The notes below the pieces were generated by a model. That model saw only the letters and a list, made by a program, of their open reading frames with translations. It did not search any database and was not told where the DNA came from. The position numbers and the translations under genes were made by a program. Of a stretch of 22,173 nt of DNA, positions 3,561 to 20,977 are shown piece by piece. Position 1 is the first letter of the stretch, and each line of letters opens with the position of its first letter. Where the stretch lies: positions 1-22,173 of IMG/VR virus record IMGVR_UViG_3300042880_000879; one strand, 5' to 3'. This DNA is from a virus.

Positions 3561-3562
3561 TA

Positions 3563-4183
3563 TTAAAAATTTTTAATATTTGTCAAGTGACCCCATTTTT
3601 GTTTTAATCTTTTTTTGTATTCCGCATAATTACCCCACTGATATTTAACTGTCCTACAGGTATAGCTGTGGTGTTTGAAGGATAATGGTGAGTTTTCTTT
3701 ACCCCAATTAATTAATATACTATATGTTCCTCTGTCATGTTTTTCCTGACTTCCAATACAATAGTCCTCAACACCAAAATGAAATTCATCAAATGTGACT
3801 TCATCAAATCTTAATGGATTTTCTTTATCAATAACAAAAAAACAAGGATCACAAAATTTTAGATCATATCTATTAGAAGCTAAAGCCCCAACATTTTTAT
3901 TATCACCATTTTTTCCGACGACACATAACACACCAAAATTTGGAGTTTGATCTATTGTTTTTTCAATTTGGGTTATAATATCATCAGAGAATGTTACATC
4001 TTCGTGGGAAAATATAATATACCTATTTGGGGATTCGTTAATAACTTCATTATGAAATTTTGATGATTTAATATTAGATTTAGTTATAATATCAACCCTG
4101 TCTTTAATTTTATCCAAACAAGGTCCTAAATATTGGTCATAAACATCCTTTTTGTATGTTATATATGCATAGGTAAATCTCAT
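3563..4183 (-). CDS. Glycosyltransferase-like protein (StrF-type GT2-like)
   Basis: About 206 aa, one GT-A-like domain. The pattern RYIIFSHEDVTFSDDIITQIE (about 54-74) matches the part of StrF-type glycosyltransferase-like proteins where the usual DXD is replaced by H-x-D-V (here HEDV, 60-63). FDEFHFGVEDYCIGSQ (131-146) resembles the later motif in which an acidic pair (ED) follows a conserved His/Phe. The end is basic. The protein is short for a full GT2 and lacks a typical DSDD, so it might transfer an unusual sugar or be a non-catalytic partner. It sits in the middle of five glycosyltransferase-like genes, one base from the next upstream gene. Family assignment is from motif reading only. 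Confidence 0.72.
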   Translation of the reverse strand: MRFTYAYITYKKDVYDQYLGPCLDKIKDRVDIITKSNIKSSKFHNEVINESPNRYIIFSHEDVTFSDDIITQIEKTIDQTPNFGVLCVVGKNGDNKNVGALASNRYDLKFCDPCFFVIDKENPLRFDEVTFDEFHFGVEDYCIGSQEKHDRGTYSILINWGKENSPLSFKHHSYTCRTVKYQWGNYAEYKKRLKQKWGHLTNIKNF

Positions 4184-4184
4184 A

Positions 4185-4859
4185 TTAATTCAATGGTTTG
4201 TCATTTGGGGTTAATTTAGATAAAGTATTATTACCGTGAATTCCTAATTTAACATATCCTCTTGGAATATATATAATATTTCTTGTGAATCCTTTCAAGT
4301 GATCATGTACACAATCCATAATTCCGTGTTTGACGTTCTTTTGTATTAAAGTACTAAACATCGAACATACCTTACTGTAATCTCTACCATGAGTATATTC
4401 TTTACCTGTTTCAACAACTAATTTTGTTGGGTGAAAATTCAAAATAAAATCGTCGTAATTGTTTTTATTTTGATTATAAAGGTTATGTATATATTCAATA
4501 TAGTTTGGAGCCATAACATCATCACAATCGTGTCTAGTTTGAATTGTGATATTATTTTTTATTACAAAGTCTCTATAATCTTTCTTGGTGTCCGAAAAAG
4601 GTATTAAATCTATTTTTTGTCTAACTTCTAAATCTTTGTACTCATCATTTTGATCAAAAAATTTAACTATTTCAATTTCTTTGTTGATTTCATTCCTAAT
4701 CAAATCATAATGTCTTGGATTGACAATTAATGCGATTGAAAAATTTTTATCTGTTTGTGAATTTATTGATGGTATGTAAGTTTTTTTAATAACCTCAAAA
4801 TATTTTTGGAATTCCTCATCTTTTCCAAATTTACATCTTGTTACTATAACATGTTTCAT
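4185..4859 (-). CDS. Putative rhamnosyltransferase-like glycosyltransferase
   Basis: 224-aa protein resembling the putative rhamnosyl transferase family. The start HVIVTRCKFG and the first strands (ARVNPRHYD-like SIALIVNPRHYD at 41-52) lead to ITIQTRHDCDDVMAPNYIEYI, where DCDD (111-114) takes the place of the TRLDxDD metal-binding motif of that family. No signal peptide or membrane segment is present. Its start overlaps the stop region of the RgpF-like gene in the other direction: its ATG (4857-4859) and the TGA of the upstream gene (4856-4858) form an ATGA overlap, so the two are coupled. An rmlC gene for dTDP-rhamnose synthesis lies about 5 kb away, which fits rhamnose as donor sugar, but specificity is inferred. 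Confidence 0.75.
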   Translation of the reverse strand: MKHVIVTRCKFGKDEEFQKYFEVIKKTYIPSINSQTDKNFSIALIVNPRHYDLIRNEINKEIEIVKFFDQNDEYKDLEVRQKIDLIPFSDTKKDYRDFVIKNNITIQTRHDCDDVMAPNYIEYIHNLYNQNKNNYDDFILNFHPTKLVVETGKEYTHGRDYSKVCSMFSTLIQKNVKHGIMDCVHDHLKGFTRNIIYIPRGYVKLGIHGNNTLSKLTPNDKPLN

Positions 4860-5734
4860 TTAATAATTTTAATATTTTTATTTTCAAAATAAACCAATAT
4901 ACCAAAAACTCTTTCCATTGCATGATTTATTGATGGTTCTCTGACATATCCATATGGCATCAATTCAATTATTTCATTGATAATGTTATTCGATAAGTAT
5001 TTTTTTAGAATTTCATTTCTAACCCAAAAAATAGTTCCCCCAATAAAATCAGAATTTTCGGGTATTTTTTTTACATTAAGCTTGGATAATATTTTTAAGG
5101 TTTCATCATAATTAACTGTAAAATTTTTATACTTTCTGAACCCCACCATACCTGTGGTACTGTCTTGAGTAAAGTTATTAATTATATTATTTACCTGAAC
5201 ACTATTAGATAAAACCCCACCCATTAATCCATGAAACCAATTCCTACCATGACTTATTGCAAATCCCCCACCTCTTCTCATTAAATCTAGTGAAGGAACT
5301 TTTTCAGAACCTAAACCTTTTTTCGTATGTATTTTGAGTATTAAATCAGTATCGTTATCGATTTTTTTATACGTATATAAAAACCCACCAATATCAACAC
5401 CTCTGTTAGGAGATAGAAAAACTTTAGTGTCATTCTTAAATTTGATTATTTTTTCATAAACATCCAAATGATCTTTTCTATAAAATCTTCCCTCGTTTAG
5501 TCCATGTTTAATAAAATGTTTGTAAGCCTTTTCATTATTATTTTTCCCCGCATTTTTCAAGTCTTGGTAATAATTTACATAAGTCTCCCACTGAAAATCT
5601 AAAAAGTTGTTTCCGTCAGTTTCATAAGGTAAATTAACATATAATTTATATGGTAAATCTAAATTATTCAAATAATTTTCAATTTCATCCCACATATCGG
5701 TATGATACAAATGAACACAAACAGCAATCCTCAT
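4856..5734 (-). CDS. RgpF-like rhamnan synthesis protein
   Basis: 292-aa protein of the rhamnan synthesis F (RgpF) family, which helps build rhamnose-containing polysaccharides. Family features visible: start RIAVCVHLYHTDMWDEIENYL, NRGVDIGGFLYTY (110-122), ILKIHTKKG (132-140), TGMVGFRKY (194-202), and FIGGTIFWVRNEIL (230-243). Between the first strand and the NRGVDIGG motif there is an inserted segment, about residues 48-85, with the pattern YYQDL...AYKHFIKHGLNEGRFY; this HF-x-HG-x-x-EGR motif is known as an accessory module in many bacterial glycosyltransferases. It is the first gene of the five-gene glycosyltransferase run, three bases after the zinc-ribbon gene. Confidence 0.85.
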   Translation of the reverse strand: MRIAVCVHLYHTDMWDEIENYLNNLDLPYKLYVNLPYETDGNNFLDFQWETYVNYYQDLKNAGKNNNEKAYKHFIKHGLNEGRFYRKDHLDVYEKIIKFKNDTKVFLSPNRGVDIGGFLYTYKKIDNDTDLILKIHTKKGLGSEKVPSLDLMRRGGGFAISHGRNWFHGLMGGVLSNSVQVNNIINNFTQDSTTGMVGFRKYKNFTVNYDETLKILSKLNVKKIPENSDFIGGTIFWVRNEILKKYLSNNIINEIIELMPYGYVREPSINHAMERVFGILVYFENKNIKIIK

Positions 5735-8676: not shown

Positions 8677-9510
8677 ATGGATCCAAATAAAATTCCTTTA
8701 CTCGTAAAATTTACTAAACAAATTCATAGATCTTTGGAGGATTCTTCCCATCCTGATGTTTTTAACACTGTTGCTGATATTAAATATGAAATCCATGAAG
8801 ACGATTTTTTAAGTTTATATCTTTCCAAGTTAAATGGATCTGAAGAAATGTACTTATTTTTTTCAATCTATTACTATCACATAACAGGTGACGCCGCAAA
8901 ATCAGTAAAGTATGTTTTAGAAAATCTTAAAGGTTACCAGTTCTTTGTATATGAAGAATTTGGTTATTTAGAGGAGGACTGTTCGTCATGTGATGGGAGT
9001 GGTAAAGAAGCTTGTGATAATTGTGATGGTCAAGGTAATGTAATCTGTAGGTCATGTGATGGTGATGGTAAAGAAGATTGTTCTACTTGTGATGGTACAG
9101 GTGAGGATGATGAAGGCGATGCTTGTGGTGAATGTAATGGAACTGGTGATAAAATTTGTAATGAATGTGATGGTAGAGGTGATGAGATGTGTTACAGTTG
9201 TGATGGCGACGGAGAATTTGATTGTAATAATTGCGATGGTCGTGGGAATGTAGAAACAGATATCATGGGTTACGATGAATTCTACGATAAAGTATATACC
9301 ACAAATAAACTTGGTGATATGGATGACGACATTCCTTTTGAGGGGCGTTATTATAATTCATTAGTACTCAAACAACCTTTCTTAAGAGAAAGGAACTTTA
9401 GAGAAACTTACAGTATGGAAGATATCAAATACGATTGGAATGTAGGTAATGAAATAGATGATCTAAATGATAATAACTTTGTTTTCTTTGGTGGTAAATT
9501 ATTACTGTAA
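8677..9510 (+). CDS. Protein with eight DnaJ-type CxxCxGxG zinc-binding motifs
   Basis: 277 aa, plus strand in a minus-strand neighbourhood. The N-terminal ~95 residues are a helical, acidic domain I do not recognise. Residues 102-190 hold eight CxxCxGxG motifs starting at C102, C113, C124, C135, C150, C161, C172 and C183: an 11-residue period with one 15-residue step in the middle, so two blocks of four. DnaJ/Hsp40 has four such motifs that bind two zinc ions; two blocks would bind about four. There is no J-domain, so it is not a DnaJ. The C-terminal ~85 residues are acidic. A role in protein folding or disulfide handling is possible but inferred from the zinc module only. The last nine bases overlap the end of the convergent gene. 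Confidence 0.85.
   Translation: MDPNKIPLLVKFTKQIHRSLEDSSHPDVFNTVADIKYEIHEDDFLSLYLSKLNGSEEMYLFFSIYYYHITGDAAKSVKYVLENLKGYQFFVYEEFGYLEEDCSSCDGSGKEACDNCDGQGNVICRSCDGDGKEDCSTCDGTGEDDEGDACGECNGTGDKICNECDGRGDEMCYSCDGDGEFDCNNCDGRGNVETDIMGYDEFYDKVYTTNKLGDMDDDIPFEGRYYNSLVLKQPFLRERNFRETYSMEDIKYDWNVGNEIDDLNDNNFVFFGGKLLL
8980..9246 (+). repeat. 33-bp-period coding repeat (CxxCxGxG module)
   Basis: Eight imperfect copies of a 33-base coding unit with the core TGTGATGGT followed by a second Gly codon. Copies 1-4 and 5-8 are separated by an extra 12 bases (9098-9124 region, acidic EDDEGDA). It is the DNA-level view of the zinc-motif array and arose by unit duplication. Confidence 0.75.
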
Positions 9511-10013: not shown

Positions 10014-10514
10014 TTATTTTTCAACTAAATCTTTATCTGCAATCTGAACAAACTCTTCAACAAACCATTCATGATATTTTCTTACTTCTCTAATTATTTC
10101 AGGATAATCAGTCCATACCTTGATTCCTTCGTTTTCAGGGCTATAATCATTATCAACTAAATATTGTACAATACAATCTTCCTCCATGGTTATAAAACCA
10201 TGTGCAAAGTATCTCGGAACATAAACTTCATCCCCTTCTTTCATATCAAAAAAGAAAATTTTATTGTAGTCATCAGAAACAGGTCTCAAATCAACAACAA
10301 AATCTAGTATCCATCCTTTGATGACCTTAATTAGTTTACCTTGGGCAAATTCGTTCTTTTGAAAGTGTAACCCCCGAAGTGTGTATTTACGGGGGTTTAC
10401 ACTGATATTACTCTGCACCCAATTCTTATCTAACTTGGCGAGATCTAATGGACTAAATGTTCCTCTTTTATCTTTGAAAACTCTGTTCTCAATAAAATGT
10501 GCTTTTTCCATCAT
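10014..10514 (-). CDS. rmlC: dTDP-4-dehydrorhamnose 3,5-epimerase
   Basis: Epimerises dTDP-4-keto-6-deoxyglucose at C3 and C5 in dTDP-L-rhamnose synthesis (RmlC/RfbC); cytoplasmic cupin. At 166 aa it is slightly short of the usual ~180. Visible motifs: DKRGTFSPLDLAKL, VNPRKYTLRGLHFQ (catalytic His H50), QGKLIKVIKGWILDFVVDLR (K60 and following strand), GDEVYVPRYFAHGFITM and YLVDNDYSPENEGIKVWTD with the catalytic Tyr. RmlA, RmlB and RmlD are not in the window, so the host pathway or genes elsewhere must supply the rest. It is coupled to the metallophosphoesterase by an ATGA overlap (10511-10514). A second ATG directly follows the first, so the start may be one codon later. It may instead make a related deoxysugar. 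Confidence 0.9.
   Translation of the reverse strand: MMEKAHFIENRVFKDKRGTFSPLDLAKLDKNWVQSNISVNPRKYTLRGLHFQKNEFAQGKLIKVIKGWILDFVVDLRPVSDDYNKIFFFDMKEGDEVYVPRYFAHGFITMEEDCIVQYLVDNDYSPENEGIKVWTDYPEIIREVRKYHEWFVEEFVQIADKDLVEK
10365..10402. repeat. Strong inverted repeat inside the rmlC coding sequence
   Basis: The arms GTGTAACCCCCG (10365-10376) and CGGGGGTTTACAC (10390-10402) are complementary except for one extra base, with a 13-base loop. It codes for the conserved VNPRKYTLRGLH segment. No U-tract follows on either strand, so it is not a standard terminator. Confidence 0.7.
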
Positions 10515-11203
10515 AAAAATTGTATTTCATTTGTTATTGGGTTCCAATCAATATGCCAAGGTAAATGAGAATATAAGTATCGTTCATTCAACACAGACGC
10601 ATTGAAGTAGTGGGTGTGTCCGTCATAGTAGTGCCCATAACCTGTATGAATGTGTCCGCAGATGTGAATCTTTGGTTTGATTTGTTTGATTCGCTCCGCA
10701 AGTAATTCACAACCCAAGTGAACATTACGATTACCTTCAACGTCATCCAAGAATCCCCAAGCTGGACCGTGAGTAATCAAGATATCAATATCTTCAGGTA
10801 TCATATCCCATACAGCTTTTAACTCTTCACCATTTCGTGGTAAGTTAAATGCCCAATTGTAGAACTCAGGTTGCCAAGGACTACCCCAAATTTTAACTTC
10901 AGTCCCATTATCATCTTGAATGGTATGTAGTTGGTCTTGTAGATAAGTCATAGTAGGATAAAAATCAACTATCTCTTTAACTTTCTCAACATTATTTTGA
11001 AAACCCCAATCGTGGTTACCAGCAATGAATACTTTGTGTTTGTACGCATCAAGTCTACTAAACCAAGAAGTAAATTGTACGATCTCGTGTTCATAACCCA
11101 TAGAGGAAATGTCACCAGCATGTAATAACAAATCACCACCTTTCAAGTCACCTTTGACATGATTGTGTTTGTTGTGTGTATCAGAAAGTATTGTAAGTAT
11201 CAT
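10511..11203 (-). CDS. Calcineurin-like metallophosphoesterase
   Basis: 230-aa dinuclear-metal phosphoesterase. All family blocks are present in order: ILSDTHNKH (D8, H10), LLHAGDISS (D31), IAGNHDWGF (N63, H64), ILITHGPAWGFLDD (H145) and CGHIHTGYGHY (H184, H186). The overall pattern, including THGPAWGFLD and GHIHTGYG, resembles the MPPED1/239AB-type branch, whose members hydrolyse phosphodiesters including cyclic nucleotides. No signal peptide, so cytoplasmic. In phages such enzymes may act on nucleotide signals or phosphorylated ends, but the substrate is not readable. It shares an ATGA overlap with rmlC downstream; TAAATTTG lies four bases before its ATG. Confidence 0.9.
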   Translation of the reverse strand: MILTILSDTHNKHNHVKGDLKGGDLLLHAGDISSMGYEHEIVQFTSWFSRLDAYKHKVFIAGNHDWGFQNNVEKVKEIVDFYPTMTYLQDQLHTIQDDNGTEVKIWGSPWQPEFYNWAFNLPRNGEELKAVWDMIPEDIDILITHGPAWGFLDDVEGNRNVHLGCELLAERIKQIKPKIHICGHIHTGYGHYYDGHTHYFNASVLNERYLYSHLPWHIDWNPITNEIQFL

Positions 11204-11207
11204 AGTA

Positions 11208-11215
11208 CAAATTTA
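11208..11215 (-). promoter_or_regulatory. Candidate Bacteroidetes -7 element upstream of the phosphoesterase gene
   Basis: TAAATTTG on the minus strand matches TAnnTTTG and stands four bases before the ATG. A TTG lies 18 bases upstream of it, within the reported spacing for Flavobacterium-type promoters. The transcript would be leaderless or nearly so. It overlaps the stop codon of the 49-aa ORF. Confidence 0.3.
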
Positions 11216-11362
11216 ATGAATTTTTCCCAAATTCAATTCAAAATATGTATTAAAACATAAAAATGTTCCAACACAAATAAAACAATTATCATAGTAACTA
11301 AATGTTATTCCTAATCCAAGTCCTCTAAAAGTACTTACGAAAAATTCTAATCTTTTAAACAT
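11213..11362 (-). CDS. Small hydrophobic protein, 49 aa
   Basis: A short open frame fills what would otherwise be a 143-base gap. It begins MFKRLEFFVSTFRGLGLGIT and ends FNTYFELNLGKIH, then TAA at 11213-11215. Its ATG (11360-11362) overlaps the end of the upstream gene by 16 bases, typical of this window. The phrase FRGLGLGITF followed by a hydrophobic, aromatic stretch is like small phage proteins I have seen in Bacteroidetes phages, but I cannot name a family. It may be membrane-associated. Confidence 0.55.
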   Translation of the reverse strand: MFKRLEFFVSTFRGLGLGITFSYYDNCFICVGTFLCFNTYFELNLGKIH

Positions 11363-11553
11363 AATTTTGTTCTTTTCATATCATATGTTGATTGAAATCG
11401 ATACATATAGTTTATCATCTCCATTTTAGGGATTTGTCTGATCCACTTCTGTTTGAAGTTTTCAAATAATTTTTTTGTAGTCAACATTTGTTCATAAGTT
11501 TGACAAGAACTTACAATTTTTGAAATGTACTGAAAGTCATCTTCGTAAACCAT
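11347..11553 (-). CDS. Small hypothetical protein, 68 aa
   Basis: Read from the ATG at 11551-11553 (MVYEDDFQYISKIV), three bases after the stop of the DUF2452 gene; a start eight codons earlier at 11577 would overlap that gene by 22 bases. The protein is helical and basic, with ISKIVSSCQTYEQMLTTKKL and FENFKQKWIRQIPKME. Small phage proteins with an S-C-x-T-x-E-Q-L/M helix are common and uncharacterised. No function can be given. Confidence 0.65.
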   Translation of the reverse strand: MVYEDDFQYISKIVSSCQTYEQMLTTKKLFENFKQKWIRQIPKMEMINYMYRFQSTYDMKRTKLCLKD

Positions 11554-11555
11554 TT

Positions 11556-11888
11556 TTAGTCTTCTATTTTTTCCCATTTGTTATCGTGATTATATTTAAA
11601 ACTTCCTATATGTTCTCTCTTCCACTCGTTTGGAGATATCAAAGATAGAAATATTTTTCCATCATTCGCATAATATAGGTGATAAATTTTTCCGATTACT
11701 GGTTCAAAACTAAATTTTGATTTATAGACCAAGTCATTCCATTTATATTCGTCAATAAGTTTTTGATATTCTTTTTTTAATTGTTCGAACCTATCTTCAA
11801 ATTGTTTGTTAACATTTAGAACTCTTGGTTCTTTCCAGTGTTCTAACATTACTACCATAAGGAAGTAAACCAGGGTTGTCGGAAACAT
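11556..11888 (-). CDS. DUF2452 family protein, frameshifted N-terminus
   Basis: The open frame covers the body of a DUF2452 protein (family that includes human C1orf50): RFEQLKKEYQKLIDEYKWND, then FSFEPVIGKIYHLYYANDGK and FLSLISPNEWKREHIGSFKYN. In this frame the first ~15 residues (MFPTTLVYFLMVVMLEH) do not look like the family. The expected start is found in the frame one base away: MSNKPDNVSDNPGLLPYGSN from an ATG at 11905-11907. That ATG forms a TAATG overlap with the upstream stop, so the original gene probably ran 11556-11907 and a +1 shift (or single-base change) near 11830-11850 separates the two parts. Function of the family unknown. Confidence 0.75.
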   Translation of the reverse strand: MFPTTLVYFLMVVMLEHWKEPRVLNVNKQFEDRFEQLKKEYQKLIDEYKWNDLVYKSKFSFEPVIGKIYHLYYANDGKIFLSLISPNEWKREHIGSFKYNHDNKWEKIED

Positions 11889-11907
11889 TATCAGGTTTGT
11901 TTGACAT
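11809..11907 (-). pseudogene. Out-of-frame N-terminal part of the DUF2452 gene
   Basis: A 32-codon frame starting at the ATG 11905-11907 and stopping at TAA 11809-11811. Its first 21 residues, with DNPGLLPYGSNV, match the conserved N-terminus of DUF2452 proteins; the rest (RTLERTKSSKC) does not. The conserved body continues in the +1 frame. This is either a real frameshift mutation, a sequencing or assembly error, or a programmed +1 shift. Confidence 0.6.
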
Positions 11908-12230
11908 TATAAAGTTTCAATTTTGTCTTTAATTTTTTTAATTAGATATTCATCTGTTATACTTTCAGTTGCCAAAATTTCTTTTAGTAAATTTTCTGTT
12001 TCTAATTTTCCTTTGACTTTAACTCTGTGTGTTGCGTTTAACTCAACTTCATATAGTTTATATGCAACCTCATCAACTTTCTTTAACTTAGTAATATATT
12101 TTTCAATCCGTTGGTCAAGTTTTCGTCTTCGTTCCATATTAGTTACAGTTGGGATCGCTTTGTATAATTCATCCAATCTTCCTTTAAGATATTGAATCTC
12201 TCCGAACTTAAGTATTTCTTGATCTGTCAT
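11907..12230 (-). CDS. Helical hypothetical protein, 107 aa
   Basis: Complete protein, almost entirely predicted helix with high Lys/Glu content and heptad-like spacing (FGEIQYLKGRLDELYKAI, RRKLDQRIEKYITKLKKVDE). No known family. Start ATG 12228-12230 overlaps the TGA of the preceding gene (ATGA), and its stop overlaps the true start of the DUF2452 gene (TAATG at 11907), so three genes are translationally coupled. A coiled-coil or structural accessory role is possible. Confidence 0.75.
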   Translation of the reverse strand: MTDQEILKFGEIQYLKGRLDELYKAIPTVTNMERRRKLDQRIEKYITKLKKVDEVAYKLYEVELNATHRVKVKGKLETENLLKEILATESITDEYLIKKIKDKIETL

Positions 12231-12520
12231 TTTTTGTGGATTGGGTTTTTACAATTTCCTTTATGTGTTCCCCAAGCACGAGTGCCAATTCCTACCTTGA
12301 TGTATTCACACTCTTGGTAAGTGTATTCAGTTACATTTGTAATTTCTGTTGGAATTTCTTTTTGTGATTTTTGTTCTTCACAGGACACTAAAGACATAAA
12401 AACGATACCAAGTAAAAATCCAAGTATAATTGTAAATAATGGAGCAACATCAGGACCTTCTTTGATCATTCTTGGTTTTACTCTAATAATTTTGTTTGGA
12501 TCTATTTTAAGTTTTTTCAT
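12227..12520 (-). CDS. Single-pass membrane protein or lipoprotein with HKGNC motif
   Basis: 97 aa from the ATG at 12518-12520; a TTG 29 codons earlier is less likely because it would overlap the upstream gene. Residues 1-25 are basic and polar, followed by one hydrophobic segment (APLFTIILGFLLGIVFMSLV) ending SLVSCEEQ. The cysteine after LVS could be a lipobox, but the 30-residue N-terminal part is long for a signal peptide, so a plain anchor is equally possible. The C-terminal half contains CEYIKVGIGTRAWGTHKGNC, similar to a small cysteine motif I have seen in Bacteroidetes phage proteins. A spanin-like role is possible given the lysis genes upstream, but there is no direct evidence. Confidence 0.65.
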   Translation of the reverse strand: MKKLKIDPNKIIRVKPRMIKEGPDVAPLFTIILGFLLGIVFMSLVSCEEQKSQKEIPTEITNVTEYTYQECEYIKVGIGTRAWGTHKGNCKNPIHKK

Positions 12521-12555
12521 ACCTAAAAAATAAATGATTTGTGTTGTGAAATCAA

Positions 12556-13008
12556 CTATGGTTTTGAATAAAATTTGATTTTGTTTTTGGCGTTTTCTAT
12601 TAACCAATCATCAACACAAGGTATTTTCTCTAAAAACTCCAACTCGTGTTGATAACATACCACTTCTTCAAGATTTGGTTTAAGGTTGAAGTTGGATCTT
12701 TTGAAGAATAAATGTAAAGATTCGTGAACAAGTATTGCAGAAATGTTATAGATATTTCCATCTTTCATTTCTCTTGTTGAAATAGTAATTGTACTATCTC
12801 CTTCTGTCGTTGAGAATCCTCCATTCCAATATGCGACATTAGAGCAGTTCTCCATAATCAGATAATACTTCTGAACATCATATTTTTTTATGGTGTCTAA
12901 AGCTTGTTCTACTTTATTTTTCCAACCATCTCCAACATCTGCAATACGGATTTGCGAGAAAGATGATGACCAAAACATTAACAATATCGAAAGTTGCCAT
13001 ATTCTCAT
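12556..13008 (-). CDS. Secreted HExxH metallopeptidase-like protein
   Basis: 150 aa. N-terminal signal peptide (MRIWQLSILLMFWSSSFSQ, cleavage near residue 19). ISAILVHESLHLFFKR (90-104) contains HESLH, the HExxH zinc motif, and a downstream glutamate in LEEVVCYQHELEFL (about 114-124) could be the third ligand, as in gluzincin-type peptidases. The length is small for a peptidase, and specificity cannot be given. It would act in the periplasm or outside the cell. It is in line with other exported proteins and starts inside the tail of the preceding gene (4-base overlap at 13005-13008). Confidence 0.75.
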   Translation of the reverse strand: MRIWQLSILLMFWSSSFSQIRIADVGDGWKNKVEQALDTIKKYDVQKYYLIMENCSNVAYWNGGFSTTEGDSTITISTREMKDGNIYNISAILVHESLHLFFKRSNFNLKPNLEEVVCYQHELEFLEKIPCVDDWLIENAKNKIKFYSKP

Positions 13009-13457
13009 ATTTTGATAACAGCTTCGTGTATAGCCTTTTTAAGTGCTGATGATACAGTCATTTTTTCAAAAGGTAACATCCCCTCTTTTACTTCAATCAT
13101 GATTGCTCTAATCTCAGTTTCAGATTCCCCAATACCTTCATAACATTTACCATCGTAATATAATCTTACACCAACCTGCGTAACTGATTCTGTTTTCTCA
13201 ACACCAACAATTCTAATTGTCGTCTTCGGTAATCCAAAGTAATAAACCTCAACATCAATATCCTTTCCATCTTCAGATAAACAGAACTTCTCAGATAGTT
13301 CGTCTTCAACTATTTGTCTTATACCAAAACGAATGTCTCTGTTTCCCATCTCTTTTAATTTAGCTGTGTTGTAAACTGAATCAACATAAACACATTGTTG
13401 AGACATTGCGAGGTTACCAAGTAGTAACATACCAAGTAGTAAGATTATATTTTTCAT
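13005..13457 (-). CDS. Exported protein resembling a reduced CsgG domain
   Basis: 150 aa with a clear signal peptide (MKNIILLLGMLLLGNLAMSQ). The mature part shows RFGIRQIVEDELSEKFCL, TQVGVRLYYDGKCYEGIGES and FEKMTVSSALKKAIHEAVI. The same order of short motifs occurs in the CsgG-like lipoprotein three genes upstream (RVGLGVTNIVIEYLEY, TRLGLQIKFVDAETSQVIVG, FNQSTVGISTKKALETASSR). I infer a distant, shortened paralogue; the similarity is by eye and could be wrong. It lacks a lipobox, so it would be periplasmic or secreted. The stop/start junction with the lectin gene shares one base. Confidence 0.7.
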   Translation of the reverse strand: MKNIILLLGMLLLGNLAMSQQCVYVDSVYNTAKLKEMGNRDIRFGIRQIVEDELSEKFCLSEDGKDIDVEVYYFGLPKTTIRIVGVEKTESVTQVGVRLYYDGKCYEGIGESETEIRAIMIEVKEGMLPFEKMTVSSALKKAIHEAVIKI

Positions 13458-14455
13458 TAGTAATTAACTGTTGATTTATACCCAGGAGCAATCAGATAAT
13501 AGTTTTGTGATCCCCCACTTACAGGTGAGTTTATTGTCATAGATGACACACCAGGAATTGCTATTCTCATATCTGATGTATTTGTTGTTAATGTTGTATA
13601 TTGTGCGGTAGTAAAGAATCTTGCGGGGTTTGTGTTTACCCAACCATTTAAAAAACCAAATCTTCTAAGGTTAATATAGTTCTCATCAGCAACATTTATT
13701 CTACCATCGTAGTTAACATCATATCTATGGTAATGAATACTTTTAATTGGTGTAATACCCAAAACTAACTTTGAAACCTCAATCATGTCTGTCAATTGTA
13801 ATGTTGTTACAGGTGTTGTCGCATCAAACTGAATGTACCATTCAACTGATGGGTTTGTTGGTTGAGAAAAACTATAATATCCTGTTGCGTTTGTATATAC
13901 TGTTTGGTGTAACACCCATGGTGTGTATGTAACTATGTATTCAAATTCTAATACATATGGTAGTGAAATTGCATTTGGTAAGTCATTCCATTTACCTCCC
14001 CCTACGAATTGGACGTAATCTTCGTTACCAGCGTTATTTGGTTCACCGGGATTCCATGAGGTGTATGAATAAGTTTCATTTGTAACCCATCTCCATTGAC
14101 CTTCTATTACTTCATCAGTTAATCCAATCCAACCTGAAGGCCATAAACCAAATATAAAAGAATTTTCTGCTGCGGTTGTTACAGTAACCAAGTGGCCTCC
14201 CATATTCAAACAAGCTTGTCTTGCATCACTCCAAAACATAGATCCTGTAGATCTGTAGTATGAATGTCCGTTGTAATTGTTTTGGGATGTAAACCCATTC
14301 ATTACAGGTGTTGTTCTTTTATATAACTTTACCGGTACGTTGACGGCTCCTGTACCATCGGCGTTTCTTATGTAACCTGAATAAGTAAAAGTCTGTGCAT
14401 TTAATGAAAAAACAGAAAATAATACTATTGTCCAACTAATAATCTTGTTCCACAT
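13457..14455 (-). CDS. Secreted C-type lectin protein with Ig-like and dockerin-like modules
   Basis: 332 aa from the ATG at 14453-14455 (signal peptide MWNKIISWTIVLFSVFSLNA); a GTG 13 codons earlier would place the signal peptide internally. The mature protein starts with a strand set of a carboxypeptidase-regulatory/CnaB-like fold (FTYSGYIRNADGTGAVNVPV). A C-type lectin domain follows, about residues 60-173, with HLVTVTTAAENSFI, WIGLTDE, EPNN (138-141) and KWNDLP (155-160). The Ig-like fold seems to resume after it (HQTVYTNATGYYSF), then a dockerin-like calcium loop (YDVNYDGRINVADEN). Carbohydrate or host-surface binding is likely from EPN and WND. It overlaps the end of the upstream gene by 31 bases. 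Confidence 0.85.
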   Translation of the reverse strand: MWNKIISWTIVLFSVFSLNAQTFTYSGYIRNADGTGAVNVPVKLYKRTTPVMNGFTSQNNYNGHSYYRSTGSMFWSDARQACLNMGGHLVTVTTAAENSFIFGLWPSGWIGLTDEVIEGQWRWVTNETYSYTSWNPGEPNNAGNEDYVQFVGGGKWNDLPNAISLPYVLEFEYIVTYTPWVLHQTVYTNATGYYSFSQPTNPSVEWYIQFDATTPVTTLQLTDMIEVSKLVLGITPIKSIHYHRYDVNYDGRINVADENYINLRRFGFLNGWVNTNPARFFTTAQYTTLTTNTSDMRIAIPGVSSMTINSPVSGGSQNYYLIAPGYKSTVNY

Positions 14456-16104
14456 GTTATTGTATAATTTAAAGTGTTTACCTTGATCGCCCACGCCCCT
14501 CCTGCATTTATATTAAATTTAAATCTTTTTGTAATTGCGATGTTTGTACCTAAACTTGGTAGAACCACATATGGTGATTTTAATACCAAATCGTTATAGT
14601 AACTTACATATGGTGAATAGACAAATAAAGCCATAAGTTTAACATCTATTCTTTTACCAAACTTCAAGTCATACATTCCACCACCAATTAAAGCCGTTCC
14701 TAAAAATGATGTTTTATAAACTTGTCCGTATGATACTGTTCCCATATAAACAGCCTTAAGACTTGGGATCTTTGGGAACATGAACATCTGTCCTCCAGCT
14801 AAAGTGCCGTATACTGATCCCCTACCTTCAAACCCTACAGATAAAGTTCCCGATAAAAGTCCAACACTTTTTTTGTTGATCCATGCATGATATCCTGTTA
14901 TGTTTGGTCCTTGTTGTGCTGACACATAATCAACCAAACCACCACGAGCAGTTTCACCATCCCAACGCATGTTATGATATCCTCCTGTTAATTTTAATCC
15001 TGTTCTAACTTCAGAGTTTTGAAAGTTAAAACCCACAAAGTCGCTTGATGCGATAACTGTGGGTTTCCCACCTTCCCTATTCTGATTTACTGTTTTAGTT
15101 GCCCCTTGGGTAATGTTTGTTTGTCCTCCTCCTTGTTCTTCTGTTTGGGTTGTGGTTTCCTCACCGTTTGGTGGGTTTCCACTATTATTCCCCACACCAG
15201 AGTTCCCACCGTTATTAGAACCATTACCGTTAGGGTTAGTTGTAGAACCATTATTTGTTACTTCTTGGTTCGTTTGGTTATTTCCTTCACCATTCCCACT
15301 AGTCCCATTCCCACTAGACTCCCCAGTATTGCTACCGACAGTAGTATTGCTATTGTTTTCATTCGTATTAGTGTTTTGATTGTTTATAGGCGACACAGCC
15401 TGTGAATTTCCATTTTCATTTGATCCACTTTGAGTTGTAGAGCTTCCTGTTGATGTTGTACCTTGAGTTCCAACATTTGTATTAGGGGTTCCATTTCCTC
15501 CGTTGTTCGAACTTGTTTCATTTGTTCCAGAAGTGGTTTGACTTCCTTCAGTAGTGTTACTTGTTCCATTATTTTGGTTTTGATTGTTATTGGTTGTGGA
15601 GTTATTAGTATTTGTTGTTGTACCGTTATTATTATTTCCACTTCCATTTTGGGAACTATTCCCATTCTTCTTATTACCTTTGTTTCCGTTGGTGTTAGAA
15701 GAATTAGATGCTGCGGTTAGACTACCGCTAAGAAAATCTGTGGCTCCGTTTGATAGATCCATTAAAGACGATAGTGAGTTGATAATACCTATCGTGTTTA
15801 ATGCCACATCTTGAGCCATGTTTATTTGACCACCAAGTCCAACTATTTCGGCACATGGTGATCCTTGATATTGTGAAAAAACTTGGTTAGCCCAAGTTTC
15901 AAAAGTTCCATCGGTAAATTGTTGTTGAGTAAAGTTCTCGACAAAACCATAATACCCCACCGTGACTGAACCATTGATGGGGACTATGATATTTTTTACA
16001 TTTCCTGTACAAGGATCGGTGTATGAATAGTTATAAGTCTGTGCTTTTAGATTGAAGAAACTAAATAAGACAAACAACAAAGATATGAAAATGTTTATTC
16101 TCAC
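14425..16104 (-). CDS. Exported protein with NGST-rich linker and probable outer-membrane barrel end
   Basis: 559 aa. Signal peptide about 1-21 (MRINIFISLLFVLFSFFNLKA). Residues 22-130 are a soluble N-terminal domain with YNYSYTDPCTGN and a second cysteine at 84. Residues 131-343 are low complexity, almost only Asn, Gly, Ser, Thr and Gln. Residues 350-559 have alternating hydrophobic/aromatic strands with Gly turns (GTLSVGFEGRGSVYGTLAGG, TCGTRLLVGQ end) as in outer-membrane beta-barrels. The order suggests a periplasmic domain tethered to a barrel, next to the CsgG-like pore gene. I know no family name for the whole protein. Its stop lies inside the next gene. Confidence 0.75.
   Translation of the reverse strand: MRINIFISLLFVLFSFFNLKAQTYNYSYTDPCTGNVKNIIVPINGSVTVGYYGFVENFTQQQFTDGTFETWANQVFSQYQGSPCAEIVGLGGQINMAQDVALNTIGIINSLSSLMDLSNGATDFLSGSLTAASNSSNTNGNKGNKKNGNSSQNGSGNNNNGTTTNTNNSTTNNNQNQNNGTSNTTEGSQTTSGTNETSSNNGGNGTPNTNVGTQGTTSTGSSTTQSGSNENGNSQAVSPINNQNTNTNENNSNTTVGSNTGESSGNGTSGNGEGNNQTNQEVTNNGSTTNPNGNGSNNGGNSGVGNNSGNPPNGEETTTQTEEQGGGQTNITQGATKTVNQNREGGKPTVIASSDFVGFNFQNSEVRTGLKLTGGYHNMRWDGETARGGLVDYVSAQQGPNITGYHAWINKKSVGLLSGTLSVGFEGRGSVYGTLAGGQMFMFPKIPSLKAVYMGTVSYGQVYKTSFLGTALIGGGMYDLKFGKRIDVKLMALFVYSPYVSYYNDLVLKSPYVVLPSLGTNIAITKRFKFNINAGGAWAIKVNTLNYTITCGTRLLVGQ
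15076..15714 (-). repeat. Low-complexity Asn/Gly/Ser/Thr coding region
   Basis: About 213 codons drawn from Asn, Gly, Ser, Thr and Gln with few charges. The low complexity produces long spurious open frames on both strands here. Length in such regions usually varies between related genomes. Confidence 0.8.
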
Positions 16105-16841
16105 TTCGGAAATACACCTTTTGATATAAGTCTAGTTACAACTCTTGATGAAGCTGTCTCTAAAGCTTTTTTTGTAGATATACCTACAGTTGATTGATTG
16201 AATTTAACATCATCTGAGATATCACCTAAAATTGATGTTGTTTTAATTGTTACCGCTTCTCCAAGTCCTGATCCTACAATCACTTGACTTGTTTCAGCAT
16301 CTACAAATTTGATCTGAAGACCTAATCTTGTAGTTTGATTTACAGTTTGTTGTCCATTAACTTTTACAACTTCGTCTTCTGATACTGAAAAATCATATAC
16401 CTCAATATAAACAAAGTACTTAGCTAATACAACATTACCTTTCACTTCGATTTTGTTTGAAGATACTCCCTTGTCTGATGCCTTGTCTTGAGCAATCATT
16501 CTTTGTTTGATCTCTTCCTTTTCTTCAGTGAAAATAAATCTGTTGGTATATTCCAAATATTCAATTACAATATTTGTTACACCAAGACCTACTCTTTTAT
16601 CTTTTAACTCAGGATATAATTCGTAAAGTTCTTCGTTAATACCAATCTTTAATAATTGGATTGGAACTTGAATTGATCCATCGTAGTCAGCAACCGAGTC
16701 TATTGATTGTTTCTTTTCAAAATCGGCAACATATTGTTCTGTCTTAACAGAGCCAATACCCCCTCCGTTTTGAGGGGGTTGGGCTTGTACTGTTTTACAT
16801 CCAATCAAAAAGAATGGTAATATGTAAAGTAGGTTTTTCAT
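16101..16841 (-). CDS. CsgG-family outer-membrane lipoprotein
   Basis: 246 aa. Lipoprotein signal peptide with FFLIGC, acylated Cys at 15. The rest follows the CsgG family: KDKRVGLGVTNIVIEYLEY, FIFTEEKEEIKQRMIAQDK, VVLAKYFVYIEVYDFSVSED, RLGLQIKFVDAETSQVIVGS and a final helix with FNQSTVGISTKKALETASSR. In curli systems CsgG forms a nonameric outer-membrane secretion pore; many homologues in Bacteroidetes have other roles. Its stop shares four bases with the start of the 559-aa gene, so the two are coupled. A hairpin-forming ACCCCCTC/GAGGGGGT pair (16758-16779) lies in codons just after the lipobox. Pore function is inferred by family. Confidence 0.82.
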   Translation of the reverse strand: MKNLLYILPFFLIGCKTVQAQPPQNGGGIGSVKTEQYVADFEKKQSIDSVADYDGSIQVPIQLLKIGINEELYELYPELKDKRVGLGVTNIVIEYLEYTNRFIFTEEKEEIKQRMIAQDKASDKGVSSNKIEVKGNVVLAKYFVYIEVYDFSVSEDEVVKVNGQQTVNQTTRLGLQIKFVDAETSQVIVGSGLGEAVTIKTTSILGDISDDVKFNQSTVGISTKKALETASSRVVTRLISKGVFPK

Positions 16842-17122
16842 TATCCTTCTACTTCTTCTTCGTTGTTATCCTTGTTTTTACCAGCAAAGTATTTGTCGAC
16901 AGAAGCAATTCCAAATGAACCTAAAGTGATCCATAAGAAACCATCATAGATAAATTGATTGATCGGCATTTTTTGTCCGTGAAATCCTGTGTAGATATCT
17001 ACACCAAGACAAACAACCATCATTAAAAATGATCCGAAACCTACGATTGATTTTTCATTTATGTCGTTGTGATCCATAAACATTCTTACTAAGAATGATT
17101 TCTTTTTTACTTTCTTTTCCAT
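16841..17122 (-). CDS. Holin-like protein with two membrane segments
   Basis: 93 aa. A basic N-terminus (MEKKVKKKSFLVRMF) is followed by two hydrophobic segments, about residues 25-47 (SIVGFGSFLMMVVCLGVDIY) and 57-79 (FIYDGFLWITLGSFGIASVD), then an acidic tail ending EEEVEG. Two helices with charged ends in a lysis-gene neighbourhood is a common holin layout. A size of 93 aa fits. It shares its stop/start base with the CsgG-like gene. A simple inner-membrane protein of another kind cannot be excluded. Confidence 0.65.
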   Translation of the reverse strand: MEKKVKKKSFLVRMFMDHNDINEKSIVGFGSFLMMVVCLGVDIYTGFHGQKMPINQFIYDGFLWITLGSFGIASVDKYFAGKNKDNNEEEVEG

Positions 17123-17143
17123 AATTTTAATTTTTATTATTTA

Positions 17144-17476
17144 TTACCAAGACTCTTCCTCTTTTTTAGGTTGAGTTTGAGCTGGTTGTTGAGCCGCAGG
17201 TTTTTCGATAATTCTTTCACGAATTACACCACCACCATTATTGTTCTCAGTTTTTTGTTTATTTTCTTGATTTTGTTGTACGTTTATTGTGATTGGTGCT
17301 TGACCTCCAGTCTGTTCCGTTTTTGTTTCTTCTTTTGGTTCTTCTTCACCGCCACCATATAACATTACACCTAACCATGTTCCACCACCAGCAATTACTG
17401 TTGTTAGTGTTCCGATGATGGTCTTCTTTAATCCTGACCATGTTCCATCATTTGTGTCTTGTGTTTCTTCTGACAT
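17144..17476 (-). CDS. Small single-pass membrane protein with polar tail
   Basis: 110 aa. One hydrophobic segment, about residues 17-41 (KKTIIGTLTTVIAGGGTWLG), preceded by a short acidic N-terminus and followed by a long hydrophilic tail rich in Glu, Gln and Asn (QENKQKTENNNGGG, QQPAQTQPKKEEE). No family recognised. The position between the secreted 635-aa protein and the holin-like gene suggests a lysis or envelope role, for example an antiholin or structural anchor. This is inference. Confidence 0.7.
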   Translation of the reverse strand: MSEETQDTNDGTWSGLKKTIIGTLTTVIAGGGTWLGVMLYGGGEEEPKEETKTEQTGGQAPITINVQQNQENKQKTENNNGGGVIRERIIEKPAAQQPAQTQPKKEEESW

Positions 17477-17499
17477 TTTTGTTTTTGTTTATTTTGTGT

Positions 17500-19407
17500 T
17501 TATTGTTTTACAATTTTTGAAACTTTAGTTTCTCCGTTTTCCATAGTTAATGTAACTAAGTAAAGACCTCTTTCTAAACTACCTAAGTTCTCAACATAGT
17601 TATACTCTCCGTTTGGTAATTGACCATCCAATATTGTAATTAACTTTCTTCCAACAACATCTGTAATTGATAGATTTGCGTTTGTTGTTTCTTTTACTTC
17701 AAATGAAATTGTTACTTCATCAATAACAGGATTAGGAACTACAGAAATTGTATTACCGATTACCTCACCCATATTACTTTTTAATACTTGAAGGATTCCA
17801 TTTGTTGGTGTGATTGTTAAATCTTCAGATTGAGTTGTTCCTGCAAACTTCAAAGAAGTATAAAGAGGACTTTCTTCCCATAGATTCTGTGGTTGTTTTG
17901 CAATAAATTGTAAAGTCACAACCTCATCACCATCTACTAATGGTTGTTCATTATTTGTAGGATCAAATCCACCCCAATCAACTTGACCATCATTTGGATT
18001 TATATATGTGATCCATTGCATGGCATTTGATGTTGAGTTAACCCCTTTGAATTCCAATAGGTCTGTATTGTATTTCAAACCAAACTGAAGTGATGATAAC
18101 TCATTCCCATTTGTAAAAACTTTAACGGGTAACTCAACTAAATTTCCAGCTTCTACAGAAATGTCAGGTACATTTACTTCGATTGTTGATGTTGGAAAAT
18201 CATACTCAACTTTAGTATCGATTACATTATAGATTTGTGACTCTAAACCTGGCATTGGTCCAACCAATACTTCAATCGGAGTAACACGAGCCATGTTGTA
18301 ACCTGTACCGTTAGCATCACCAGGAACCATCACATAATAAACCACAGAGTCAGGTTGACCCGGTAAGATATCAAATGTAAAGTTTGTTACACCCGCAATT
18401 GTTGATGTATAGTTAGTTGCGGATCCGTTGATTGTTGTATATTCAGATACAGTAAAGAACTTAACATCTTTTGTGTTGTTAGGCCATACGTTAAATCTTC
18501 CTGAGATTCTACCAAACACACCCCATACATCGGATATAGTTGTACTATTAGAACCATTCACATCTGCCGTGTAGTAATCAAATCCAGTCATAGTTCCGTT
18601 TCCAAGAACCCACTGATTGATTTGTTGAGCGTCTGTTGATGAAATAATATTACCTACACCCATTGTATCTCCTTGAATTGCTAATCTTACATCCCAATAT
18701 GTTGTGTCCAATGGAACTGAGATGTTGAAGTCTCCGTTGATGTCAGTAACATAAGCAGAATGTTGTGTCCAAGTGTTTCCACCAAATGGTCTTCTTTGTA
18801 ATGCTAAGTTAAGATATTTGGCAGGAGAACCTGTAACGTTTGTGAACGTTCCATGATAAGCAAAGTTCACAGGAGTAAACACACCACCATAGTTATGAAC
18901 ACTTAATGTGGTATCCATACCATCTTGTTTAGCGGCATACGGTGTAAAAGACTGAGGTCCTGTCCAAGTTAAGTTGGAAATAGACGCCAAGTTATTAAAT
19001 GTTGCCGCTGGTGCGTGAGTAAAGGTAATTAGAAATCTCTCACCATTTGGAATCGTATAAGTTGCACTTGGACCTGTATAAACCAAAGTAATGGTAATAA
19101 AACCATTTGTTGTGTTGGTGATAAACTGAAGGTCTAAGTTTGTTGATGATCCGATAAGAGATACGGTTGCATTTGTAAACGCTACATTATCGTAGAATAC
19201 TCTAAACTGAACCCCTGCAAATTTTGTAAGGGTTGTGTTTTGTAATGTAATCTTCGCATCAGTTGTGCCTTGTGCTGTTGTCCCAACTTGATATTGGGAT
19301 GCAATGATACCCCACAATCCGTTTGAAGGTGCTGCGGGTACTTGAGCTTTACCGATAAACGGTAATAAGAATAAAAGTCCTAATAACAGACCTTTTAGTT
19401 GTTTCAT
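17500..19407 (-). CDS. T9SS-sorted surface protein with cohesin-like and dockerin-like modules
   Basis: 635 aa. Signal peptide (MKQLKGLLLGLLFLLPFIGKA). Order: cohesin-like beta domain ~30-175; Ig-like strands ~185-245 (WTQHSAYVTDINGDFNI); dockerin-like segment ~250-305 (DYYTADVNGSNSTTISD); further strands to ~385; a second, clearer cohesin-like domain ~408-545 (PDISVEAGNLVELPVKVF, LSSLQFGLKYNTDLLEFKGV, VDGDEVVTLQFIA); and a type A T9SS C-terminal sorting domain ~550-635 (SVVPNPVIDEV, LSITDVVGRKL, LERGLYLVTL, KIVKQ). The sorting domain directs export through the Bacteroidetes type IX system and cell-surface attachment. The central module is shared with the lectin protein. Role probably adhesion or scaffolding. 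Confidence 0.88.
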   Translation of the reverse strand: MKQLKGLLLGLLFLLPFIGKAQVPAAPSNGLWGIIASQYQVGTTAQGTTDAKITLQNTTLTKFAGVQFRVFYDNVAFTNATVSLIGSSTNLDLQFITNTTNGFITITLVYTGPSATYTIPNGERFLITFTHAPAATFNNLASISNLTWTGPQSFTPYAAKQDGMDTTLSVHNYGGVFTPVNFAYHGTFTNVTGSPAKYLNLALQRRPFGGNTWTQHSAYVTDINGDFNISVPLDTTYWDVRLAIQGDTMGVGNIISSTDAQQINQWVLGNGTMTGFDYYTADVNGSNSTTISDVWGVFGRISGRFNVWPNNTKDVKFFTVSEYTTINGSATNYTSTIAGVTNFTFDILPGQPDSVVYYVMVPGDANGTGYNMARVTPIEVLVGPMPGLESQIYNVIDTKVEYDFPTSTIEVNVPDISVEAGNLVELPVKVFTNGNELSSLQFGLKYNTDLLEFKGVNSTSNAMQWITYINPNDGQVDWGGFDPTNNEQPLVDGDEVVTLQFIAKQPQNLWEESPLYTSLKFAGTTQSEDLTITPTNGILQVLKSNMGEVIGNTISVVPNPVIDEVTISFEVKETTNANLSITDVVGRKLITILDGQLPNGEYNYVENLGSLERGLYLVTLTMENGETKVSKIVKQ

Positions 19408-19432: not shown

Positions 19433-20032
19433 TTATTTTATGTCTGTTGATTCAATCAATGTGTAAGTAAAAGAGTTTCCGTGAGTGTCTCTAGCCTTTC
19501 TACAGATTTTCATAAACGCTTCAAAGTCTGCAGATCTTTTAAAAACTTGACATCCTTCACTCCAATTCTCTACATAAGTTGAGTCAGCACCAGCCTTGTG
19601 AATGTTAATACCAAATACACCCTCAGCAATTTTTGTTTCGTCATAAGTTAAATCACGATTTGGGTCACGATAAACTTTTACGTTCTTTGCTTGTTTAAGT
19701 GCTTCGTATTTTCCTTGATGAAGACCGATTCCGTGTGAACCTCTGTATTGTCCTTCAACAAGTCTGGCAACACCAGCTTTGTTGTGATATTCCATCACAC
19801 CTTTTTTTCCAGGATCTGTGGTTGCCGGCCATTCGTGATATTTCCACGCACCTGTTTCATCTTTGTAACTTAATGTGATTAAGTCATCAAACGCGTTCGT
19901 TACTTTTTGACCAGTACCGGCGTTTCTTATACCTATAATGTTTACATCGAACCCTTTGTTGTTTGTGTCTTCGAAGTAAACATAACCTTTGGCTTTGACG
20001 GCAGCCTCGACCTGTTCTCTTGTGTATCCCAT
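19433..20032 (-). CDS. YkuD-like (L,D-transpeptidase-type) peptidoglycan enzyme
   Basis: 199 aa, no signal peptide. FGINIHKAGAD (140-150) and WSEGCQVFKRSADFEAFM (157-174) give the H145 ... S158-E-G-C161 arrangement of YkuD-type L,D-transpeptidase domains, with C161 as the nucleophile. The rest (GSHGIGLHQGKYEALKQ, SFTYTLIEST) follows a phage-associated branch I recognise but cannot name. Such enzymes in phages may cleave or modify peptide cross-links. It stands beside the divergent GH19 endolysin gene and ahead of the holin-like gene, so it probably belongs to lysis. The TACTTATTAGAAAA motif ends 14 bases before its ATG. Confidence 0.78.
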   Translation of the reverse strand: MGYTREQVEAAVKAKGYVYFEDTNNKGFDVNIIGIRNAGTGQKVTNAFDDLITLSYKDETGAWKYHEWPATTDPGKKGVMEYHNKAGVARLVEGQYRGSHGIGLHQGKYEALKQAKNVKVYRDPNRDLTYDETKIAEGVFGINIHKAGADSTYVENWSEGCQVFKRSADFEAFMKICRKARDTHGNSFTYTLIESTDIK

Positions 20033-20054: not shown

Positions 20055-20117
20055 TCTTAAAAATTACTAACTGAAGTTTTTTTTATAATAAAATCTTTAC
20101 TTTGTCTGAGAATTTAC

Positions 20118-20125
20118 TATTTATA
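20118..20125 (+). promoter_or_regulatory. Shared upstream motif TATTTATA (copy 5)
   Basis: On the plus strand CTATTTATAGGAAAA precedes the chosen ATG (20141) of the endolysin gene by 15 bases. It falls inside the extra codons that a TTG start at 20102 would add, which supports the ATG at 20141 as the real start. Confidence 0.4.
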
Positions 20126-20140
20126 GGAAAATCAAAAATT

Positions 20141-20977
20141 ATGGTATTAAAAGTTGGATCAGAAGGAGCTGACGTAAAAAAACTCCAAGAAAAATTAGGT
20201 GTAGAAGCAATCGGAAAATTCGGACCTAAAACTGAAGCAGCAGTTAAAGCTTGGCAAAAGGCAAACGGACTTAAGGATGATGGTATCGTTGGTGATGCTA
20301 CTTGGTCTAAGTTGTTTGGTGAAGAACCAAAACAACCTCAAGTGGTAAAAGAAGACGTAGTTATCCCAAGTGGTGGATCATTAAACATTGAAAAATTGAA
20401 GGGTCATATTCCTGATGCAGTTCTTGCTCAGATTCCTGAAACTGCTAAAAAATTCAATATTACAAATAATTTGAGACTAGCTCATTTCTTGTCACAATGT
20501 GGTCATGAGTCAGGTAATTTCAAAGCGGTTAGTGAGAACTTGAATTACTCTGCTGATGGTTTGAAAAAAATCTTTGGTAAATATTTCCCTGGTAATCTAA
20601 ATGAGTCTTACGCTCGTCAACCTGAGAAGATCGCCTCTCGTGTTTACGCATCAAGAATGGGTAACGGTGATGAAGCATCAAAAGAAGGTTTCAAGTTTAG
20701 AGGAAGAGGTTATATTCAATTAACAGGTAAAGCAAACTACACTAACTTTACAAAATTTATTGGTGAGGACTGTGTTTCTAATCCTGATTTAGTTGCAACC
20801 AAATATCCTTTGGCTTCAGCCGCATTTTTCTTTGACTCAAATAAATTATGGGCAATCTGCGATAAAGGTGCGGATGACGCAACTGTAACTGCAGTAACAA
20901 AAAGAGTGAACGGTGGAACAATCGGGTTACCTGATCGTATTAAACACTTTAAAGAGTATTACAACTTACTTAAGTAA
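20141..20977 (+). CDS. Endolysin: peptidoglycan-binding domain plus GH19 chitinase-like domain
   Basis: 278 aa from ATG 20141, which gives the usual start of a peptidoglycan-binding domain (MVLKVGSEGADVKKLQEKLG); a TTG start 13 codons upstream is unlikely. Residues 1-60: PG_binding_1 fold (FGPKTEAAVKAWQKANGL, GIVGDATWSKLF). After a short linker, residues ~88-278 form a GH19 (chitinase-class I type) lysozyme domain: FLSQCGHESGNFKAVSENLN with catalytic E123, and FRGRGYIQLTGKANY. The enzyme cleaves the glycan backbone. There is no signal peptide, consistent with holin-dependent release. It is one of only two complete plus-strand genes and ends at a strong hairpin terminator. Confidence 0.92.
   Translation: MVLKVGSEGADVKKLQEKLGVEAIGKFGPKTEAAVKAWQKANGLKDDGIVGDATWSKLFGEEPKQPQVVKEDVVIPSGGSLNIEKLKGHIPDAVLAQIPETAKKFNITNNLRLAHFLSQCGHESGNFKAVSENLNYSADGLKKIFGKYFPGNLNESYARQPEKIASRVYASRMGNGDEASKEGFKFRGRGYIQLTGKANYTNFTKFIGEDCVSNPDLVATKYPLASAAFFFDSNKLWAICDKGADDATVTAVTKRVNGGTIGLPDRIKHFKEYYNLLK

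Follow-up and report, generated by a model that had tools for sequence, protein, structure and literature searches.

Genes for curli-type proteins have already been described in phages: csgF and csgG occur in pelagimyophages (PMC7029224) and in the methylophage Melnitz (PMC9004378), where their function is unclear. Cargo of the host type IX secretion system (T9SS) has likewise been described in a phage, Cryophage (Bellas et al. 2020, PMC7468147). Here we analyzed a 22,173-base viral record of IMG/VR, referred to as the window, which carries at 12227-19407 a block of genes encoding, among others, a CsgG-fold protein and a cohesin-bearing T9SS protein. Phage CsgG and phage T9SS cargo thus each have precedents, and their combination has none in the open-licence literature searched, where no account of the present module turned up for Flavobacterium phages and CsgG, for viral genomes and PorV, or for phages and cohesin or lectin. 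We consider it probable that the block is a phage-encoded surface-display module acting on the infected Bacteroidota cell, not a set of virion parts.

The exported gene block

The block consists of nine adjacent genes, all on the minus strand and separated by short gaps or overlaps, in agreement with the first-pass annotation of this DNA, which had reported a tight run of genes for exported, lipobox-bearing, or membrane proteins. A simple signal-peptide rule was passed by six of the 33 window genes, and all six lie inside the block: those for the T9SS protein, the CsgG-like protein, the barrel protein, the lectin, the protein at 13005-13457, and the putative peptidase. Of the remaining three, 17144-17476 encodes a single-transmembrane (TM) protein, 16841-17122 a holin-like protein with two TM segments, and 12227-12607 a small lipoprotein. 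Scans of the window for RNA families and tRNAs were negative. The genes that carry the argument are the following.

17500-19407, minus strand: scaffold protein, 635 residues, predicted to be exported by the T9SS; signal peptide, transthyretin-like plus dockerin-like region, cohesin, and C-terminal T9SS type A sorting domain.
17144-17476, minus strand: TM110, a short single-TM protein with a polar tail and a constant member of the module.
16101-16841, minus strand: CsgG-fold outer-membrane protein, 246 residues, lipobox FLIGC (AlphaFold2 model, Foldseek, and hhalign).
14425-16104, minus strand: barrel protein, 559 residues; signal peptide, N-terminal DPC-motif domain, linker, and 12-strand beta barrel (AlphaFold2 model and Foldseek).
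13457-14494, minus strand: payload, 345 residues, C-type lectin plus a dockerin-like C-terminus (weak dockerin match); the true start is probably the ATG at 14455.
13005-13457, minus strand: second CsgG-fold protein, 150 residues, a distant paralogue of the one at 16101-16841 (hhalign).

The first-pass identification of a T9SS protein and of a C-type lectin held up, with E values of 3.7e-10 for the T9SS type A sorting domain and 3.3e-15 for Lectin_C. The scaffold also matched Cohesin (PF00963, 3.2e-10; approximately residues 405-525) and Por_Secre_tail (7.5e-10), and it combines the two marks of T9SS cargo, a C-terminal type A sorting domain and a signal peptide. When 28 scaffold relatives were scanned, all contained the TIGR04183 sorting domain, 23 contained a cohesin, and nine contained Dockerin_1 at E<=0.01; the signal peptide was present in 80/80. 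A profile match to the PDB related scaffold residues 245-308 to the ScaB dockerin structure (E=0.0016). In the isolate Flavobacterium phage immuto (L081:9805-11629), the scaffold is split into two genes, one dockerin-like (363 residues) and the other carrying the cohesin and the sorting domain (243 residues).

Searches of Pfam, PHROG, NCBIfam, and PDB sequences returned nothing usable for the CsgG-like, barrel, and 13005-13457 proteins, and the CsgG-like protein did not match the CsgG family model PF03783. An AlphaFold2 model of this protein was built on 25 sequences; its top PDB matches in Foldseek were all CsgG (E. coli CsgG, E=1e-8, probability 1.00), with a weaker fold match to PelC, and its best match in a viral structure library was a phage protein annotated as CsgG (E=9.9e-7). 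A 76-sequence profile aligned over its full length with chromosomal CsgG (hhalign 90.5%, E=1.4e-6, 229 columns). Deeper profiles on both sides were needed for this result: the 25-row alignment compared with the single E. coli CsgG sequence gave a probability of 2.2%, and the profile of the divergent marine group described below gave 13% by itself. The family of 13005-13457 was related to the CsgG-like family with a probability of 98.35% in hhalign. By a strict pattern, a lipobox was found in the window CsgG-like protein and in 49 of 79 members of group 1, the window-type relatives, and is not universal.

The barrel protein named by the first-pass annotation does have a 12-strand model, which resembled many 12-strand outer-membrane barrels in Foldseek, including the amyloid exporter FapF. 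Its two domains are homologous across the window-type and marine groups (98.3% and 96.7%). The linker between them (approximately residues 125-346) is rich in N, T, G, and S, very variable in length within group 1, and absent from the marine group. Equating the N-terminal domain with CsgF was rejected, as the match spans 32 columns and consists mostly of the signal peptide plus about ten residues.

Conservation of the gene order and exchange of the payload

Searching IMG/VR with the CsgG-like protein yielded 150 related places, 80 of which were kept; the one isolate group matched was phage immuto (71% identity), whose host is Flavobacterium sp. LMO8. In group 1, all 67 loci with enough upstream DNA have the T9SS-cohesin and TM110 genes ahead of the CsgG-like gene, the barrel gene follows it in 80/80, and relatives of 13005-13457 follow as well in 60/62. 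The core order is therefore T9SS-cohesin, single-TM, CsgG-fold, 12-strand barrel, and second CsgG-fold protein. A distant contig from a genome collection led to a marine group of 35 viral contigs whose CsgG-like proteins are about 33% identical, and here the order runs T9SS-cohesin, PorV/PorQ-family, coiled-coil TM protein, CsgG-like lipoprotein, linkerless barrel, and second CsgG-fold protein, the single-TM coiled-coil protein being the counterpart of TM110. The gene order, which was to be looked for in other phages, was thus recovered in two divergent phage groups, and that it has persisted over this distance speaks for a single functional unit. The cohesin/T9SS gene of the marine group adjoins the PorV/PorQ-family gene, with NF033709 matches reaching 1e-28; the cut-off was exceeded in loci L152 and L168 and was missed in L145. 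At L145:8304-9173 and in L152, L157, and L168, the phage DNA encodes, beside T9SS cargo, a protein of this family that is homologous to an outer-membrane component of the T9SS.

That the block belongs to phages, as first proposed, is borne out by the isolate immuto and by capsid and terminase genes that share records with block relatives. A T4-type capsid gene was present in 11 of the 20 records checked, and a terminase match was present in 14, with 12 over the cut-off. By coordinates, the distance from block to capsid gene ranges from approximately 13 kb (L034) to 140 kb (L038), the latter record having a second, weak capsid match about 17 kb away. Chromosomal relatives, which would have spoken against a phage origin, were looked for in a pattern scan of 84,980 genomes; this returned only two relatives, both on contigs of metagenome-assembled genomes with the same gene neighbours, and a chromosomal origin was rejected. 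An order-level search of 298 genomes recovered one of these two and, besides it, a viral-type contig and a weak hit that is a true CsgG. Signal peptides are kept across the families, in line with the proposed export and envelope location, and since they are conserved family by family, assembly into virions in the cytoplasm fits poorly. The block shows neither the linkage to head or tail genes nor the lack of Sec signals expected of virion proteins.

Comparison of related loci indicates that the lectin gene is a swap slot, near-identical phages differing mainly there. In the protein encoded after the barrel gene, a signal peptide is combined with a variable binding part and with a tail that is related to the dockerin-like region of the scaffold. 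The binding parts are of at least five types: C-type lectin, lectin with LamG, lectin with Ig_7, GEVED, and an unnamed domain. Between loci L006 and L007, the neighbouring genes are 92-99% identical and the slot gene 34%; between L005 and L001, the corresponding values are 91-98% and 36%. When the payload classes are mapped on a tree built from the CsgG-like protein, 19 changes are required, where 5 would be the fewest possible and shuffling gives 23.8 on average. A scaffold identity of 22% between L015 and L022 was discarded as an artefact, because the L022 sequence begins within the module, so that its payload had been used in the comparison. Cohesin, the dockerin-like domains, the second CsgG-fold protein, and the swapping of the payload had all been missed in the first-pass annotation.

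Possible functions of the block

We considered that a surface-display module of this kind would work in the following way. The host T9SS would carry the cohesin scaffold across the outer membrane and anchor it. The payload, which carries no T9SS signal, would leave through the phage CsgG-fold/barrel apparatus or follow the scaffold, and would dock on the cohesin through its dockerin-like end. The infected cell would then be coated with a binder chosen by the phage, and swapping of the payload would reflect changing targets. The most likely purpose is control of the infected-cell surface, through exclusion of rival phages, adhesion, or aggregation; the purposes suggested by the first-pass annotation, blocking rivals, preventing re-adsorption, or holding cells together, are likewise hypothetical. 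A more specific version, in which the T9SS-anchored cohesin scaffold and interchangeable dockerin-tagged binders, exported by a dedicated CsgG-fold/barrel apparatus, form a cellulosome-like platform, is put forward tentatively, as possible rather than probable.

Several observations weigh against these proposals. The dockerin matches in the window fall under the Pfam cut-off (E=0.012-0.033) and contain a single Ca-loop-like motif, and a separate dockerin-only payload was not found in the marine group. The payload tails diverge, with 24-38% identity between some classes within an overall range of 24-84%, and exchange therefore usually takes most of the gene. The barrel matches are generic among 12-strand barrels, and the CsgG-like model is mediocre (pLDDT 60). 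In that model, which is of low confidence, hairpin 1 (strands 142-161 and 164-181) carries the invariant residues E155 and D156, and hairpin 2 looks truncated, with one strand (187-203) and no return strand. For both reasons, the model does not appear to justify calling the protein a pore, and a channel may not form; of the "CsgG-type pore" of the first-pass annotation, the fold was retained through Foldseek and hhalign, and the pore was left as a possibility, as complete hairpins were not seen. Binding, export, and localisation are likewise predictions from sequence.

The other genes of the block and those bordering it are as follows.

16841-17122, minus strand: TM93, a two-TM holin-like protein of variable position among loci, probably part of a separable lysis cassette and not of the core.
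12556-13008, minus strand: exported putative zincin with signal peptide and HESLH motif; sub-threshold metallopeptidase matches.
12227-12607, minus strand: small lipoprotein of phage family phrog_19356 (1.7e-8), not conserved with the core (15/81 loci).
19433-20032, minus strand: neighbouring putative peptidoglycan hydrolase; 25 bases separate it from the scaffold gene, which lies downstream (phrog_3000, 9e-36; endolysin phrog_33083, 1.3e-12).
20102-20977, plus strand: neighbouring, divergently oriented GH19-type endolysin with a peptidoglycan-binding domain (PG_binding_1, 1.7e-13; Glyco_hydro_19, 3.5e-8).

The gene at 12556-13008 had been called a secreted peptidase; the signal peptide is present, and its identity as a peptidase is suggested by the HESLH motif and the sub-threshold matches. 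Relatives of it occur in 65 loci; 34 of these have them downstream, and 27 have them upstream, encoded on the other strand. The TTG start of 12227-12607 is doubtful; an in-frame ATG near 12469 would give a standard lipoprotein whose signal ends in FMSLVSC.

Elsewhere in the window, 1549-5734 and 10014-10514 encode two GT2 glycosyltransferases, a glycosyltransferase-like protein, an RgpF-like rhamnan protein, and a dTDP-4-dehydrorhamnose epimerase, possibly a phage-borne rhamnose polysaccharide set that would fit the surface theme. The gene at 8677-9510 (plus strand) is rich in CxxCxGxG repeats, a DnaJ-type zinc-finger motif, and no J domain was seen in it.

With hydrolase genes at 19433-20032 and 20102-20977, the block does directly follow lysis genes in the window, as the first-pass annotation had stated, but this link is not constant among relatives. 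It nevertheless raises the question of a spanin-like lysis module that would breach the outer membrane as infection ends, built from the inner-membrane single-TM protein and the outer-membrane CsgG-fold lipoprotein and barrel, with the endolysins nearby. The pairing of a TM protein with an outer-membrane lipoprotein recalls i- and o-spanins, the marine TM protein is a coiled coil with a weak Rz-like PHROG match (E=0.0045), the window has a GH19 endolysin, a second hydrolase, and a holin-like gene adjacent, and pinholin and secretin ideas have been proposed for phage CsgG (PMC9004378). However, the holin-like and GH19 genes change place relative to the module, which makes a lysis role less likely; TM93 separates TM110 from the CsgG-like gene in 22 loci, is located downstream in 5, and was dropped as a core member. 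The holin and endolysin neighbours thus appear, from their placement among loci, to form a lysis cassette separable from the module. The immuto block sits after RNR, DnaB, and RecA genes, and it is not obvious what cohesin, T9SS signals, PorV/PorQ proteins, and swappable binding domains would do in lysis. On balance, we regard a lysis module as unlikely.

A curli-type (type VIII) secretion system exporting a fibre, as proposed for pelagimyophages, would account for the CsgG fold, and the appearance of FapF among the barrel matches and the faint likeness of the first residues of the barrel protein to CsgF point the same way. Pelagiphage HTVC008M groups comparable genes, with a small TM protein just before csgF and csgG and curlin-like genes after them. 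In the block, however, no Pfam match to curlin or CsgE was obtained with the encoded proteins, the likeness to CsgF is confined to the signal peptide and some ten residues, and the CsgG family model is unmatched, so that this explanation also seems improbable to us. Virion decoration or tail-fibre parts are the least credible alternative: the lectin, GEVED, and LamG domains and the swapping of the slot do resemble receptor-binding proteins, but, much as the first-pass annotation had argued, the conserved Sec signal peptides on soluble parts, the T9SS sorting domains (28/28), the 13-140 kb to capsid genes, and CsgG-fold and barrel proteins that belong in the outer membrane make it very improbable.

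Phages are mostly known for rewiring the interior of the cell; the surface-display module, conserved and widespread, appears to rebuild its exterior through the host T9SS. If this is true, it would be modular reprogramming of the cell surface in which the target is changed by swapping one gene, and it would explain in concrete and testable terms why CsgG-like genes occur in phages at all, a question open since the pelagiphage curli operon was described. The swap slot could then be read as documenting the targets that these phages must bind or block, and phage immuto provides an isolate with a related module.

Comparison with known systems

As members of the PelC/LpoB/CsgG superfamily do, the window protein has a CsgG-like domain, the character of an outer-membrane lipoprotein, and a weaker fold match to PelC, but its family is distinct and was encountered here almost only on phage contigs. 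The barrel protein shares with FapF, the functional-amyloid exporter of Pseudomonas, an N-terminal helical region, a disordered linker, and a 12-strand barrel; no sequence relation to FapF was found, and the similarity may be a generic likeness among barrels.

The cellulosome offers the parallel of a cohesin on an anchored scaffold and dockerin-like ends on its partners, here following a transthyretin-like domain much as in the X-dockerin pair. The present system differs in being phage-borne, in having a T9SS domain as its anchor, and in having binding domains instead of cellulases as partners, whose binding is predicted. Cryophage, a Bacteroidetes phage, resembles it in that its variable genes include ones with type A sorting domains of the T9SS. 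The cargo of Cryophage comprises enzymes together with a PA14 protein, and no conserved module is described for it, whereas here the order of the cohesin scaffold, CsgG-fold, and barrel genes is constant, and the marine group adds a PorV/PorQ homologue.

The pelagimyophage and Melnitz curli genes are similar in arrangement, in that a T4-like phage encodes an envelope protein of CsgG fold close to a small coiled-coil TM protein and outside the structural cluster. In HTVC008M, genes after csgG (L122:8871-9557 and 10638-11963) were observed to contain curlin-like repeats, with gp016 annotated as CsgB; the published account states that CsgA and CsgB are missing (PMC7029224). The window block differs from those phages in showing no CsgF, CsgE, or curlin and in having a pair of CsgG-fold proteins, a barrel protein of 12 strands, and, along with a swappable payload, a T9SS cohesin scaffold.

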